The position numbers and the translations under genes were made by a program. From a virus, in the IMG/VR virus record IMGVR_UViG_3300038701_002738, positions 1 to 38,862 of that record: DNA of 38,862 nt; one strand, given 5' to 3'. The notes under the pieces are model-generated. The model did no database searches and had not been told where the DNA came from. It saw only the letters and a list, made by a program, of their open reading frames with translations. This document shows positions 25,914 through 36,483 of the stretch, in pieces (position 1 is the first letter of the stretch; each line of letters starts with the position of its first letter).

Positions 25914-26086
25914 TTCACCGCCTTCCTGAACCGCCACTCGTCCTCTCGGTCCCGCACCACCGCGTACTCGCCTTCGCACAACAAGTCCGCCTCGACCGGG
26001 CCGACCGCGCGCCGCATCTCCTTCGACGTGCAAGGCTCCCAGCGCTCGGGGTCAGAGACCGGGGCGCGTTCGTAGGTCGTGGTCAC
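25910..26086 (-). CDS. 58-residue early protein, uncharacterised
   Basis: GTG 26086 overlaps the previous stop as GTGA, and the stop overlaps the next GTG. It reads VTTTYERAPVSDPERWEPCT, then SKEMRRAVGPVEADLLCEGE and YAVVRDREDEWRFRKAVK. The alternating charged/aliphatic pattern looks like a folded small domain. No family is recognised. Confidence 0.65.
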   Translation of the reverse strand: MTTTYERAPVSDPERWEPCTSKEMRRAVGPVEADLLCEGEYAVVRDREDEWRFRKAVK

Positions 26087-26733
26087 TTCGAGCCTCCCCC
26101 GGGCATCCGCAGCACCGGCGGCGGCTTCGTCGGATCGGGGCGGCAGCGGAACACGCCGTCTTCACCGAGCGCGCAGCTCTCGCGCGAGTCCTCGTCCGCC
26201 TCGCCACCGTTGCCGATCCGGCCAAGGTCCACGCCAGGCAGCGCGCCCAGCTCCCGCGCACGCTCGACCCTCTGCGTCCGCTGCTCGCGGTCGTTCCACG
26301 CCTTGCAGAACTGCGACCGCTGCACGCCGCGCGCCGTCACGTCCGCCGCCGGATCCGTGAGCGTCCACTCGCCGTGCGTGCCGAACGTGCGTGCGACCGC
26401 CAGCACCTCGGGGTCCAGGTCGTCGAGGTGGCAGTAGCCGTCCGCGCGCGGGTGCTGCCGCCAGCGCTGCAAGTGCTCGTAGGCGCCGTCGGCGGTGAGC
26501 GCGTGGGGGTTCTGTAGCTCGCGGCAGCGCTCCCGGATCTTGCCGATGGCCGGGAGGAAGCCCGTCGTGTTCTCGCGGATCAGCGAAACGCAGGCGCGGT
26601 ACAGCAGCGCGACCGGCTCGTCCTCGAGCGCGGCGACGTAGGTCAGCACGTTGCGCTCGGTCACGCGGCCAGCCGGGCAGCCGCCAGCGAGGAACTCGAT
26701 CACGTCGAGCACGGTTTCGGGGTCACTGGGCAC
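26083..26733 (-). CDS. Helicase-loader-like replication protein (G39P type)
   Basis: The 216-residue protein starts at GTG 26733 after AGGAGG. The N-terminal half is helical: VLDVIEFLAGGCPAGRVTER, YVAALEDEPVALLYRACVSL and ENTTGFLPAIGKIRERCREL. The last segment resembles the motif of SPP1 G39P-type loaders that deliver DnaB-like helicase (short protein, helical N-domain, no Walker box). The C-terminus is charged and disordered. It sits directly downstream of the replication initiator. A frame extending to 27198 exists, but the upstream part only mirrors the initiator gene. Confidence 0.6.
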   Translation of the reverse strand: MPSDPETVLDVIEFLAGGCPAGRVTERNVLTYVAALEDEPVALLYRACVSLIRENTTGFLPAIGKIRERCRELQNPHALTADGAYEHLQRWRQHPRADGYCHLDDLDPEVLAVARTFGTHGEWTLTDPAADVTARGVQRSQFCKAWNDREQRTQRVERARELGALPGVDLGRIGNGGEADEDSRESCALGEDGVFRCRPDPTKPPPVLRMPGGGSK

Positions 26734-27661
26734 TGAGCTTCCTCCTGGCGGCGGCGAAGGCGTCTTCGGTGGGGGTGGGCTTCCGGGCGCCGTTCTGCCT
26801 CCCGCGCTCCCACGCGGCCTTCGAGTCGGCGATGCGCTCCCACTTCTCGCGGAGCCCGGCGCACGACTGCACGACGAAGCCCCACGAGGCGCCGTCGGAC
26901 CAGGGCGGCTCGTCGTGGCGCATCCAGGACAGCACTTCGAGGGCGCGCTCAGCGGGGATCGGCTTGCCGTCGGCGGGGCTGAGCTGCCCGAGCCGCAGCA
27001 GCTTCTCGACGTCCTTCCGCCACGCGCCAAGCCGCCCTGGGATCTTGTCGGCCTTGTCGGGGTGGTGGTGCTGGAACAACTCGACGAAGGCCGACAGCAC
27101 TTGATCGATCTCGGTGTGTGGCGCAGCCGCAGGCTCGACACCATCGGCATTGGCATCGGCATTGGCAACGGCAACGGCACCGGCATTGGCAACGGCACTA
27201 GCTGGCACTTTTCGGCAATCTGCCGCGTTCTGCCGCGAAACGCGGCACACTACGCGCGTAGTGTTTGCGAGATCCTTGGCCGAAACCTCCCCGGTAAGGT
27301 CAGTCCAGCCCTCCGGAGGGTCGATCTTGCTCGGGTAGGCCCGTCGCATCGTATGCTGGTACTCCCACCAGTTGGTCATCTGGAGAGCTTCAGTGCCGGC
27401 CGCGTCGTAGAGGTGGATCAGCTCGGCGTCGTGGAGCTCGCGGAGCCACTTGGCGACGTTCTTGGCGGTGACATCGAGCAGCGGGAAGCAGGCGGCCTTC
27501 ACGAGCGCGACAGCGGCCTCTCTGCGGCCTTGGTCGTCGCAGGCGGTGAGGAGCCGGGTCCAGAGGAGCTGCGCCTGCATGGAGCACTCAGCGAGCTTCA
27601 TGCTGGTGGCGGCATCCGGGGAGAGGATGCGGGGGCCGGGGGTGCCGTAGCGCTTGGCCAT
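26723..27661 (-). CDS. Replication initiator / replisome organiser
   Basis: The 312-residue protein starts at ATG 27661, one base into the previous stop. Residues 1-120 fit the winged-helix N-domain of phage replication organisers (PRILSPDAATSMKLAECSMQ; LLTACDDQGRREAAVALVKA; VAKWLRELHDAELIHLYDAA). A low-complexity Ala/Asn/Asp linker follows, and the C-terminal half is helical (EIDQVLSAFVELFQHHHPDK). Lambda O is built the same way, with a DNA-binding N-domain, linker and helicase-interaction C-domain, and with origin repeats inside the gene. The hexamer repeats here encode the linker. Confidence 0.7.
   Translation of the reverse strand: MAKRYGTPGPRILSPDAATSMKLAECSMQAQLLWTRLLTACDDQGRREAAVALVKAACFPLLDVTAKNVAKWLRELHDAELIHLYDAAGTEALQMTNWWEYQHTMRRAYPSKIDPPEGWTDLTGEVSAKDLANTTRVVCRVSRQNAADCRKVPASAVANAGAVAVANADANADGVEPAAAPHTEIDQVLSAFVELFQHHHPDKADKIPGRLGAWRKDVEKLLRLGQLSPADGKPIPAERALEVLSWMRHDEPPWSDGASWGFVVQSCAGLREKWERIADSKAAWERGRQNGARKPTPTEDAFAAARRKLSAQ
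27146..27199. repeat. Nine tandem GGCANN hexamers (candidate origin iterons)
   Basis: Nine consecutive 6-base units begin with GGCA (GGCATT, GGCATC, GGCATT, GGCAAC, GGCAAC, GGCACC, GGCATT, GGCAAC, GGCACT). Two 16-base blocks recur at a 24-base period (27158 and 27182). They encode the Ala/Asn/Asp-rich linker of the initiator. Together with the palindromes just to the right, they form a candidate phage origin. A purely protein-level repeat is the alternative reading. Confidence 0.6.
27221..27264. other. Inverted repeat and 18 bp palindrome, origin candidate
   Basis: TGCCGCGTT (27221-27229) and AACGCGGCA (27239-27247) form a perfect inverted repeat with a third TGCCGCG between the arms. Directly adjoining is a perfect 18 bp palindrome at 27247-27264 (ACACTACGC and its complement). 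These lie 22 bases from the hexamer block, inside the initiator gene. Such clusters are typical of origins; binding by the initiator is inferred. Confidence 0.6.
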
Positions 27662-28179
27662 CAGGCGCTCACCCCCGCCACCAGCTCCAGCCGCGCCGCC
27701 TCCGCGCACCAGAGCGCATCGGCCTCGTCCTCGCCGACCGAGTCCAGCGACCACCGCTCACGCGCCGCGGCGATCATCGCCGTCTTGCTCGCGTTCCCCT
27801 TCCCCGTCGCGTGCTTCTTGATCTCGCCCACGCCGACACCGACGTAAGCCGACTCGCCGAGCGACTCGAGCTCGCCCAGGACCGCGCCGAGTAGCTCGCC
27901 GTGCACCTGGGCCGCGTAGGTCGCGACGTGGCGCTTGACCTCCTCGTAAGCCCACTGAATCCACTCGCCGGGCTTGAGCTGTGCGGTGAGTTCGGCGTGC
28001 AGATCGGCGACGAGCCGGCGCAGCCGGAGCGCGCGCATCCCGTGGCCCTCTCCGCGCCGGATAGAGCAGACCCAGGTGCCGGACTGGATGCGCTCGCCGG
28101 TGGCGGAGTCGAGCACGGCCCACCCGCACTTGCTGGCGATGTCGAAGCCGACGGTGAAGCGCGGTGCTGGTGCGGTCAC
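27661..28179 (-). CDS. RuvC-like Holliday junction resolvase
   Basis: The 172-residue protein starts at GTG 28179 (GTGA overlap). It shows the RNase H-like RuvC pattern: FTVGFDIASKCGWAV (D13), a central QWAYEEVKR (E79/E80), the GVGVGEIKKHATGKGNASKT loop, and GEDEADALWCAE (D151, D154). These four acidic sites match the family catalytic set. It would cut branched DNA formed in recombination or at concatemer forks. It lies next to the initiator and near the Sak4-like ATPase. Confidence 0.85.
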   Translation of the reverse strand: MTAPAPRFTVGFDIASKCGWAVLDSATGERIQSGTWVCSIRRGEGHGMRALRLRRLVADLHAELTAQLKPGEWIQWAYEEVKRHVATYAAQVHGELLGAVLGELESLGESAYVGVGVGEIKKHATGKGNASKTAMIAAARERWSLDSVGEDEADALWCAEAARLELVAGVSA

Positions 28180-28340
28180 GGGCGCCCCCGCAGCCGCCGC
28201 GCCCGGTGCGCGACGTAGAGCCGCCACGGCAGCTCGAAGATGGCGCCGACGCGGGAGCCGAGGATGACGAAGGCCGCGAGGATCAGTGCCGTCGTCACGA
28301 TGACGGCGAACAGGTCGGCGGGGGTCGTGGGGTCAGGCAC
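28176..28340 (-). CDS. 54-residue single-pass membrane protein
   Basis: GTG 28340 follows AAGGAGG by six bases, one of the best ribosome sites in the operon. The protein reads PDPTTPADLFAVIVTTALIL then AAFVILGSRVGAIFELPWRL and a strongly basic end (YVAHRARRLRGRP). One membrane helix (about 9-28) and a basic C-terminus indicate N-out, C-in topology. The function is unknown; membrane-directed early takeover is one idea. Confidence 0.7.
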   Translation of the reverse strand: MPDPTTPADLFAVIVTTALILAAFVILGSRVGAIFELPWRLYVAHRARRLRGRP

Positions 28341-28590
28341 GGGTGGCCTCCTTGATGTGCCGCAGAGCGATCTCCGCCGCCGCGCCGGGTGTATTGCCCG
28401 AGAACCCGAGCCCGCCTGCGAACACAGTGCAGCGGAACAGCTCGGGGCCGTCGCGGCGCTCGATCTTCAACTTGGCGTGCGGCTCGTGGTTCATCAGCTC
28501 CGCCAGCGCGCGGGACGTGACGCCCTCGCTCGCGATGCGCTCGCGCACGCGGGTGGCGTAGCCGAGCATGTCGTCGTCGAGTGCGCTCAC
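28333..28590 (-). CDS. Uncharacterised 85-residue early protein
   Basis: The protein starts at GTG 28590 with GGAGG upstream. The helical start (SALDDDMLGYATRVRERIAS) is followed by an ALAELMNHEPHAKLKIERRD strand pair and a Gly-rich loop (FAGGLGFSGNTPGAAAEI). No family is recognised. It overlaps both neighbours by 4 to 8 bases. Confidence 0.65.
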   Translation of the reverse strand: MSALDDDMLGYATRVRERIASEGVTSRALAELMNHEPHAKLKIERRDGPELFRCTVFAGGLGFSGNTPGAAAEIALRHIKEATRA

Positions 28591-29386: not shown

Positions 29387-29625
29387 GGGGCCGGCTCCGT
29401 GAATCGAATCGTGATGTCGTCGTCGCTCACAAACTCATGCGGACCAGCATGGGCATCCGGCAACATGCATGTACGGCCAGTCACGGAGTCGTCGTAGTAC
29501 CTCTCCGACACATAGGCGATGTACTGCTCCGACACATAGGCGATGTACTGCTCGGATAGGTAGCCATGCTCTTCCTCGATGGCATCAAGCTCGTCGGTCC
29601 AGCAATGCACCACGCGGTCGCTCAT
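29383..29625 (-). CDS. 80-residue protein with in-frame 8-residue tandem repeat
   Basis: From ATG 29625 the protein begins SDRVVHCWTDELDAIEEEHG, then carries two exact copies of an 8-residue unit around SEQYIAYV and a degenerate third. The repeat is DNA-level: two identical 24 bp units lie at 29505-29552. The rest ends in an acidic strand region (SDDDITIRFTEPAP). The function is unknown. Confidence 0.65.
   Translation of the reverse strand: MSDRVVHCWTDELDAIEEEHGYLSEQYIAYVSEQYIAYVSERYYDDSVTGRTCMLPDAHAGPHEFVSDDDITIRFTEPAP
29505..29552. repeat. Exact 24 bp tandem duplication inside a gene
   Basis: Two identical 24-base copies (29505-29528, 29529-29552) lie head to tail and keep the reading frame. 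Their identity suggests a recent slippage event or a copy number that varies between phage genomes. Confidence 0.85.
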
Positions 29626-35089: not shown

Positions 35090-35590
35090 ATGGCTAGCGA
35101 GGAAGCCACCGACTCAGCCCTCACCCCCTACGTCCCCGAGCACCGCCAGGTCGCTCGCGGCGGGCAGGACGAGCACCTCTGCCTCGTGAACCCCTGGCTG
35201 CCCTCCGAGGTCGCCGCACAGCTCGCCTCCGGCATGCCCATGGGCCTCGCCGTCGCACTCTTCGGCGTGCACCCACGCACCGCACAGAAGTGGCTCGAGA
35301 AGGGCGCCGCCTCCGACGACCCGACCGACCCGAATCGCGCCTTCTTCCTCATCACCACCGCCGCGAAGGCCGAGTTCGTCCGCGCCGCCCTCCGCCGCAT
35401 CCGCACGAAGTCCGGAGAGCGCGACGCCGGCCGCGAGGCCACCTCCCACCCCGGCGACTGGAAGGCCGAGCTCACCGTGCTCGAGCGACTCTGCCCCGAG
35501 TACTTCGCCAAGCAGACCGTCCTCACCACCTCCACCGCCGCCGGCCGCCTACCCTTCGACGCCATCGACCCCTCGATCCCCAGGGACTGA
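35090..35590 (+). CDS. terS: Terminase small subunit-like protein
   Basis: The 166-residue protein has an HTH at about residues 45-75 (QLASGMPMGLAVALFGVHPR, TAQKWLEKG), a helical middle (RAFFLITTAAKAEFVRAALR) and GDWKAELTVLERLCPEYFAK. That W.A....LER..P..F pattern is common in small-terminase-like phage proteins that recognise the packaging site. The ATG appears leaderless. Its plus-strand codons are C-rich, unlike the G-rich late genes. Confidence 0.7.
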   Translation: MASEEATDSALTPYVPEHRQVARGGQDEHLCLVNPWLPSEVAAQLASGMPMGLAVALFGVHPRTAQKWLEKGAASDDPTDPNRAFFLITTAAKAEFVRAALRRIRTKSGERDAGREATSHPGDWKAELTVLERLCPEYFAKQTVLTTSTAAGRLPFDAIDPSIPRD

Positions 35591-35594
35591 CCCC

Positions 35595-35993
35595 ATGGCC
35601 CTCATCGGCTCCACCCAACTCGTCGACATCCCCCACGAGCCCGGCAACCAAGTCGCCATCCGACCCCTCTCCGGCCACGAACTCGACCAAGCCATCAAGC
35701 ACAAGAAGTTCGCCAACGCCGAACTCGAGGCCGCAGCCAAGACCTCACTCACCGCCAAGGGCGAATCCCCCACACCCACCCCCTCCCGCACCGACACCTA
35801 CGACCTCGACGCCGTCCTCCTCCCCGGACTCCAGGCCTTCGCCGGACCGCTCTACCTCGACTCCGCCGCAGGCCCCGACACCCACCACACCGTCACCCCC
35901 GACCTCATCAAGCACAAGCTCGACGCACCCACCCGGCTCTCCACCTTCCACTCCATCCTCGACATCACACCCGGTGCCCTCCCGAACTCGTGA
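35595..35993 (+). CDS. Uncharacterised 132-residue protein downstream of TerS
   Basis: The protein starts 4 bases after the TerS-like stop. It has a structured N-terminus (TQLVDIPHEPGNQVAIRPLS; HELDQAIKHKKFANAELEAA), a Pro/Thr-rich linker and a helical end (LIKHKLDAPTRLSTFHSILD). The same C-rich composition as the TerS-like gene suggests the two moved together. No family is recognised. Confidence 0.65.
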   Translation: MALIGSTQLVDIPHEPGNQVAIRPLSGHELDQAIKHKKFANAELEAAAKTSLTAKGESPTPTPSRTDTYDLDAVLLPGLQAFAGPLYLDSAAGPDTHHTVTPDLIKHKLDAPTRLSTFHSILDITPGALPNS

Positions 35994-36483
35994 TCCCCAC
36001 ACGACTTCCAACCCCCGCACACTCCCCCCCGCACCCCTCCGTGCACCTCCCCCAACACCCACTCCGCACCCCTCCAGCACCTGCTTGGCGCGCCCCTCGC
36101 TCGCCGCGCCAATCACCTGTCATCCAGGCGGCCCGGCAGGATACTTCCGGGCGCGGGAAGGGACCTGCCAGCCAGGGTGGCGGTGGGCGCCGCGCCCTCT
36201 CGCTCGCATGCCCCCTCCGAGCTGGCGCGCGTAAGCCCTTGCACTCACCCGCACTATGCACGCCGCCGTCGCCGCCATGCCCTCGCGGGCATGCCTCACT
36301 CGGCCACACTGGCAGCCACGTAACGCGTGCTACGCGGCGCGCCCTCGCACCATGCCAGTGCGGCGGCAGCGTGCATATGCACCGCGCGACCCCGCCGGCG
36401 CCTCGGAAAGTTGTCGGGGGTGCCGGGGTCGGTGCGGGCACCCCCTTCGCCTACCGACCTGGAAATCCTGAGGGAGCGCATTC
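35994..36483. other. Palindrome-rich gene-free region (candidate packaging or control region)
   Basis: No supported gene lies in these 490 bases. Visible structures are a hairpin CATGCCC-TCGC-GGGCATG (36276-36293), a 12 bp palindrome GTGCATATGCAC (36371-36382) and the stem noted at 36416-36445. It lies between the TerS-like gene and TerL, where cos or pac sites are often found. The first 120 bases are C-rich like the gene before them. Confidence 0.55.
36416..36445 (+). terminator. GC hairpin before the terminase arm
   Basis: GGGGGTGCC (36416-36424) and GGCACCCCC (36437-36445) are perfect reverse complements with a 12-base loop. Only two T follow, so it is a weak intrinsic terminator. It could end the TerS transcript or attenuate entry to the genes from 36484. 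Confidence 0.4.

Follow-up and report, generated by a model that had tools for sequence, protein, structure and literature searches.

Several replication origins have been located within the gene of their own initiator. In phage lambda, oriλ lies within the initiator gene O (PMC6022878). The Bacillus phage SPP1 carries oriL in gene 38, where the initiator binds direct repeats in its own gene, and the SPP1 helicase loader acts together with the initiator (PMC6316719). In the staphylococcal plasmid pSK41, which encodes a RepA_N initiator, the N-domain binds four Rep boxes in the centre of rep, and the protein can do without the linker that the ori encodes; the plasmid pPR9 combines a phage-like N-domain with a different origin region of its own (PMC5703833). 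For mycobacteriophages, repA (Miko, Jeeves) suffices for autonomous replication, and the ori is only presumed to lie within or beside repA (PMC7157519). In-gene phage origins are already known, and the case described here would belong among them or be a variation on them.

The window, which is the whole stretch of DNA analysed here, is a viral record of 38,862 bases. With the known in-gene origins (oriλ, SPP1 oriL and, above all, pSK41) serving as the model, we infer that positions 27146-27264 are very likely the core of a phage replication origin inside its own initiator gene. The original prediction had placed a candidate origin here, and it was supported by the initiator family, by repeats that are constrained as DNA and by a place in the gene that is conserved in the family. 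The features of the region are listed below.

26083 to 26745, minus strand: downstream gene, possible helicase loader (PHROG 9804 of unknown function, 1.1e-11; P-like helicase loader at 0.009 only)
26723 to 27661, minus strand: replication initiator gene, 312 aa (translation; PHROG 1408, E=1.7e-13; PHROG 2149, E=7.5e-13)
27134 to 27247, minus strand: part coding for the disordered linker, residues 139-176 (AlphaFold2 pLDDT <50)
27146 to 27199, plus strand: nine GGCANN hexamers in tandem, a candidate array for opening or helicase loading
27219 to 27237, plus strand: direct repeat TCTGCCGCG, two copies at 10-bp spacing, candidate iterons (TRF; helical spacing common to the family)
27221 to 27247, no strand assigned: inverted repeat TGCCGCGTT/AACGCGGCA, overlapping the TCTGCCGCG element
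27247 to 27264, no strand assigned: perfect palindrome of 18 bp, ACACTACGCGCGTAGTGT, a candidate site for an initiator dimer (family dyads enriched here)
27359 to 27622, minus strand: part coding for the winged-helix domain, residues 14-101 (AlphaFold2 pLDDT mostly >90; winged-helix fold matches)
27661 to 28179, minus strand: upstream RuvC-like resolvase gene (PHROG 159, 1e-16)

The PHROG matches of the initiator, which belong to several replication initiation protein families, covered the N-terminal domain, and the C-domain was predicted by AlphaFold2 to be helical with mixed confidence. The fold search returned generic winged helices only, including Rep and ORC chains, all with a Z-score below 8; the match of the N-domain to the Rep chain 5kbj_C (Z 6.7) was of this generic kind. 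Searches with the initiator gave no sequence match in the PDB, no Pfam family at E<=0.1 (RepA_N included) and no O-like PHROG; two of its relatives, L005 and L009, matched the O-like PHROGs 391 and 277. The initiator gene starts where the RuvC-like resolvase gene ends, Sak4-like and exonuclease genes lie upstream of the initiator region, and an integrase gene is found further on. The joint presence of RuvC-like, loader-like, Sak4-like, exonuclease and integrase genes places the initiator among the early genes of a temperate tailed phage. Elsewhere in the window, we observed a portal gene (656-2866, 736 aa) whose C-terminal part extends past the portal profile match, and a 24-bp tandem repeat of 2.4 copies (29497-29553; TRF) in a small minus-strand ORF encoding YVSEQYIA repeats.

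The nine GGCANN hexamers, the 9-bp inverted repeat with a third internal copy and the perfect 18-bp palindrome that had been claimed for this region were confirmed at 27146-27199, 27221-27247 and 27247-27264, respectively. Their location at the linker-coding part of the initiator was likewise borne out, as the predicted disordered residues 139-176 are encoded there. The hexamer run was uninterrupted, and every exact triple-hexamer match in the window fell within it; at up to two mismatches, 19 matches were present in the window versus 6.3 expected, and the largest number in a shuffle was 13. TRF also detected the array, with the best score as a 12-bp unit, and a run of six hexamers appeared in none of 600 codon shuffles of the gene, in which the maximum was four. 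The arms of the inverted repeat (TGCCGCGTT, 27221-27229; AACGCGGCA, 27239-27247) are unremarkable alone, since a 9-bp-arm inverted repeat arose in 8% of codon shuffles. The third copy of this element produces TCTGCCGCG at 27219-27227 and at 27229-27237, exactly 10 bp apart; a 10-bp-spaced direct repeat of a 9-mer was seen in 0.8% of codon shuffles, and the same fraction (0.8%) contained a perfect 18-bp palindrome. The clustering of these elements, together with the codon evidence described below, makes a chance origin of the repeats unlikely. An Rfam search of window positions 26000-28500 gave no match.

Scans of IMG/VR with single proteins (initiator, portal or loader) and a scan of GTDB revealed no close relatives, and the comparison of the repeats was therefore moved to distant family members. 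An N-domain alignment provided 80 loci, and from these and from phage records 42 non-redundant initiator genes were kept as the first sample. Arrays were scored in all genes by one fixed measure, the highest self-match of a 30-nt window at lags of 4-9 and 12. In 41 of the 42 cases, the best tandem window lay between 0.40 and 0.65 of the gene length, and the array exceeded codon shuffles at p<=0.01 in 37/42 initiators versus 7/145 flanking ORFs (Fisher 1.4e-26); against synonymous shuffles, 34/42 initiators passed at p<=0.05. A second sample of 38 further non-redundant genes, taken from a different alignment with thresholds unchanged, showed the array at 0.40-0.65 in 32/38 and passed the codon test at 0.01 in 26/38, the two samples being one protein family with common ancestry and not fully independent. 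As evident from these results, most of about 80 distant relatives share a two-part layout, spelled in different letters, at the equivalent point of the gene. In order, the gene presents a winged-helix domain, repeats phased at 10/11 bp or dyads, a linker array of 5-8-bp units and a C-domain. The tandem array in the linker was recognised as a family feature in this analysis and does not come from a published definition of the initiators. We found no description of this family-wide layout in the literature covered, in which subscription journals were largely missing, so that this is weak evidence of novelty. The array units varied widely and included (GGAGAA)n, (GGAAGT)n, (TCGCCC)n, (GAATCC)n, GGGAACA and GGGAA, next to (GGCANN)n in the window. 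An initiator relative with a purine array of 5-bp period was also observed on the 1.9-Mb Azospirillum argentinense plasmid AbAZ39_p1 (L092), where it is probably a prophage.

Most of the arrays consisted of GG or GGG runs spaced 5-8 bp apart on one strand with a strong purine bias, and their absolute purine skew was 0.31 versus 0.08 at random places. Such arrays would suit an explanation in which the tandem GG units form a G-quadruplex or R-loop and the origin opens there with no need for recognition of a specific sequence. We consider this unlikely, as the array of the window has two-G runs only and that of one relative (L017) contains hardly any GG or CC. The window array showed no purine bias and its GG strand was the template strand, while the GG strand was the coding strand in 32 of the 42 genes. 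Since the strand and bias of the window array differ, a single strand-specific mechanism for all of the arrays is not assured.

In the 90 bases before each array, read in the coding sense, we scored exact 8-mer direct repeats. These were present at helical spacings in 27 genes of the first sample, and 36 of the 42 spacing counts fell at 10, 11, 20-22 or 31-33 bp; codon shuffles gave a mean of 0.6 helical counts (maximum 3), and the region downstream of the arrays gave 1. The second sample agreed, with 19 of 20 upstream spacings being helical versus 0.29 in shuffles. An origin of these spacings as spill-over of the arrays was rejected for 11, 22 and 33 bp, because array periods of 5-8 bp would also give 12, 14, 15 and 18 bp, which were absent; a few of the 10- and 20-bp cases, L004 among them, could still have arisen by spill-over. 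Inverted repeats were also enriched just upstream of the arrays (12 versus 1.3), and the palindrome and the 10-bp-spaced TCTGCCGCG pair of the window gene conform to this upstream pattern. In two relatives, L029 and L055, the dyad consisted of two perfect inverted DnaA boxes, TGTGGATAA...TTATCCACA, inside the initiator genes and upstream of the array by 129 nt and 108 nt, respectively. This is strong circumstantial evidence that the place of the dyad serves as an origin in these two genes, and it suggests that host DnaA participates in some members of the family; no DnaA box was found in the window. As a separate observation, six relatives (L005, L009, L016, L052, L057 and L069) shared a near-palindrome around TGAGGACTCA, which was repeated ahead of the array with a spacing of 11 or 33 bp and occurred once more about 200 nt further upstream, within the part coding for the winged helix.

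In translation, the hexamers give a linker of Ala-X dipeptides, (Ala-X)9. GCC is used for every one of the nine Ala residues, and the nine X codons (AAT, GAT, GTT, GGT) without exception have T at the third position, although these T-ending codons are rare in this phage, each accounting for only 4-12% of the codons for its amino acid. The product of the X-codon usages was 4e-11 under an assumption of independence that duplication would break. In the nine TGCCRN units, the synonymous positions were invariant and variation occurred only at positions that change the amino acid, which is opposite to the outcome of protein selection. The repeat score of the window gene was reached by 0.3% of synonymous shuffles (p=0.003) and by 0 of 300 codon shuffles. 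Comparison between related genes pointed in the same direction: among 428 pairs, most of them enterobacterial, codons for the same residue differed in 12.3% of cases within the array versus 33.8% outside, and for 32 other pairs the corresponding values were 6.5% and 22.1%. With amino-acid identity equal inside and outside, synonymous codons were 2.8-3.4 times better conserved in the arrays than in the rest of the genes, a value to be read as an effect size and not as a p-value because the gene pairs are not independent. Thus, among the distant relatives on which the comparison was run, the DNA repeats were not lost and synonymous codons were conserved in the arrays. The Ala-X linker is a by-product of the DNA repeats, as the original prediction had suggested for its Ala/Asn/Asp composition; the rare T-ending X codons and the synonymous conservation in relatives both support this.

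These data bear directly on the explanation that the repeats are coding matter only; in this view, replication slippage would have expanded a flexible linker of low complexity, and the repeats would have no function as DNA. A disordered linker tolerates repeats, and slippage yields identical codons, so that codon probability alone proves little. However, the hexamer units vary only at non-synonymous positions, the synonymous sites of the arrays are about three times more conserved than other sites, the upstream repeats track the helix pitch, and the flanking genes are without arrays. In particular, periods of 5 and 7 bp are common in the family and an 8-bp unit occurs in mycobacteriophage Beakin; these periods do not fit codons, and therefore no protein repeat could produce them. 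The coding-only explanation is largely refuted for the family and appears very unlikely for this locus.

We also considered whether the palindrome and repeats are an operator for early transcription or for autoregulation, bound by the initiator or a phage repressor, with the origin lying elsewhere. A perfect 18-bp palindrome is typical of operators, and the identical 18-mer is present in the viral contig L003, where it adjoins a terminator and precedes a gene. However, the site here is in the middle of a gene with no promoter-like site nearby in a sigma-70 scan, the 18-mer occurs once in IMG/VR (L003) and once in GTDB (an Okeania MAG, L093), which is within chance, and the tandem array and the DnaA boxes of the relatives would be left unexplained. 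Overall, an operator role in place of an origin seems quite improbable. The palindrome was also rejected as a known host operator, its single exact matches in IMG/VR and in GTDB being at chance level. A partition (parS-like) or packaging site lying in the initiator gene by happenstance is hardly credible. An array of eight direct repeats of 8 bp does serve as parS in some mycobacteriophages (PMC7157519), but an integrase is encoded by this phage, and the array remains within the initiator gene across diverse phages.

The site is best read as an in-gene theta origin akin to those of lambda, SPP1 and pSK41, but one in which helically phased iterons adjoin a short tandem array and no AT-rich element is present. 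No AT-rich opening element was present in the linker region, where the lowest GC content over 40 nt was 0.55, compared with a gene mean of 0.68. The hexamers are probably not the binding sites of the winged helix themselves; the TCTGCCGCG repeats and the palindrome are predicted to be better candidates, because helical phasing and dyads suit such binding. A role of the array in opening or strand recognition is proposed because its 5-8-bp units are too short for side-by-side binding to duplex DNA and because the arrays are often strongly strand-biased. In the proposed mechanism, an oligomer of the winged-helix domain would bind the phased TCTGCCGCG repeats and the palindrome (27219-27264) and strain the adjoining DNA, the strands would open at the short tandem array (27146-27199), and the C-domain and the downstream loader would place the host replicative helicase at this array. 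The linker would need flexibility only, so its sequence could follow the DNA. The assignment of initiator binding to one part and of opening to the other is a hypothesis that we regard as about evenly balanced. Cumulative GC skew, which had been suggested as a check, did not have its minimum at 27.2 kb; the maximum was near 23 kb and the minimum near 36 kb. We took the skew as uninformative because it follows the gene strand. Unlike the rest of the window, positions 35200-36080 were very C-rich on the plus strand (GC skew -0.35), and runs of C occurred near 36005-36075.

It is possible, although we put it forward only tentatively, that the layout represents a large and widespread class of phage origins within initiator genes, in which iterons phased at 10/11 bp are combined with a 5-8-bp GG-type array that replaces the AT-rich element in a DnaA-trio-like manner. 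If the array is DnaA-trio-like, it would serve both strand opening and helicase loading, and if the class is widespread, the phage-specific array would dictate the dipeptide-repeat linkers (EK, SP, ET, GS, AN). Origins are seldom mapped in uncultured phages; should the pattern hold, many could be read from one gene, and odd low-complexity linkers of initiators would be explained as DNA sites. The layout also offers a test of opening at an origin without an AT-rich element, and it predicts that the N-domain and the origin travel as one module, as plasmid pPR9 suggests.

Upon comparison with the known systems, the locus resembled lambda in having a probable in-gene origin, a candidate DNA-binding N-domain joined to a C-domain via a flexible linker, and dyad repeats. 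The C-domain of the lambda protein binds P, whose helicase loader gene lies downstream, as does the possible loader gene here. In contrast, lambda has four iterons of 18-19 bp and a 39-bp AT-rich region, whereas the site here has short repeats phased at 10 bp, a palindrome and a hexamer array, without an AT-rich region. The parallel to lambda O that had been drawn at the outset therefore holds for place and logic, but not for sequence or the AT-rich element. The SPP1 origins likewise differ, with an AT-rich unwinding element and a second origin, oriR. The initiator of pSK41 is a plasmid protein of another family, and the fold match of the window N-domain to Rep is generic. Among the mycobacteriophages, gp71 of Beakin is a relative of the window initiator, and its gene carries an 8-bp GGAACAGA array at the corresponding place.
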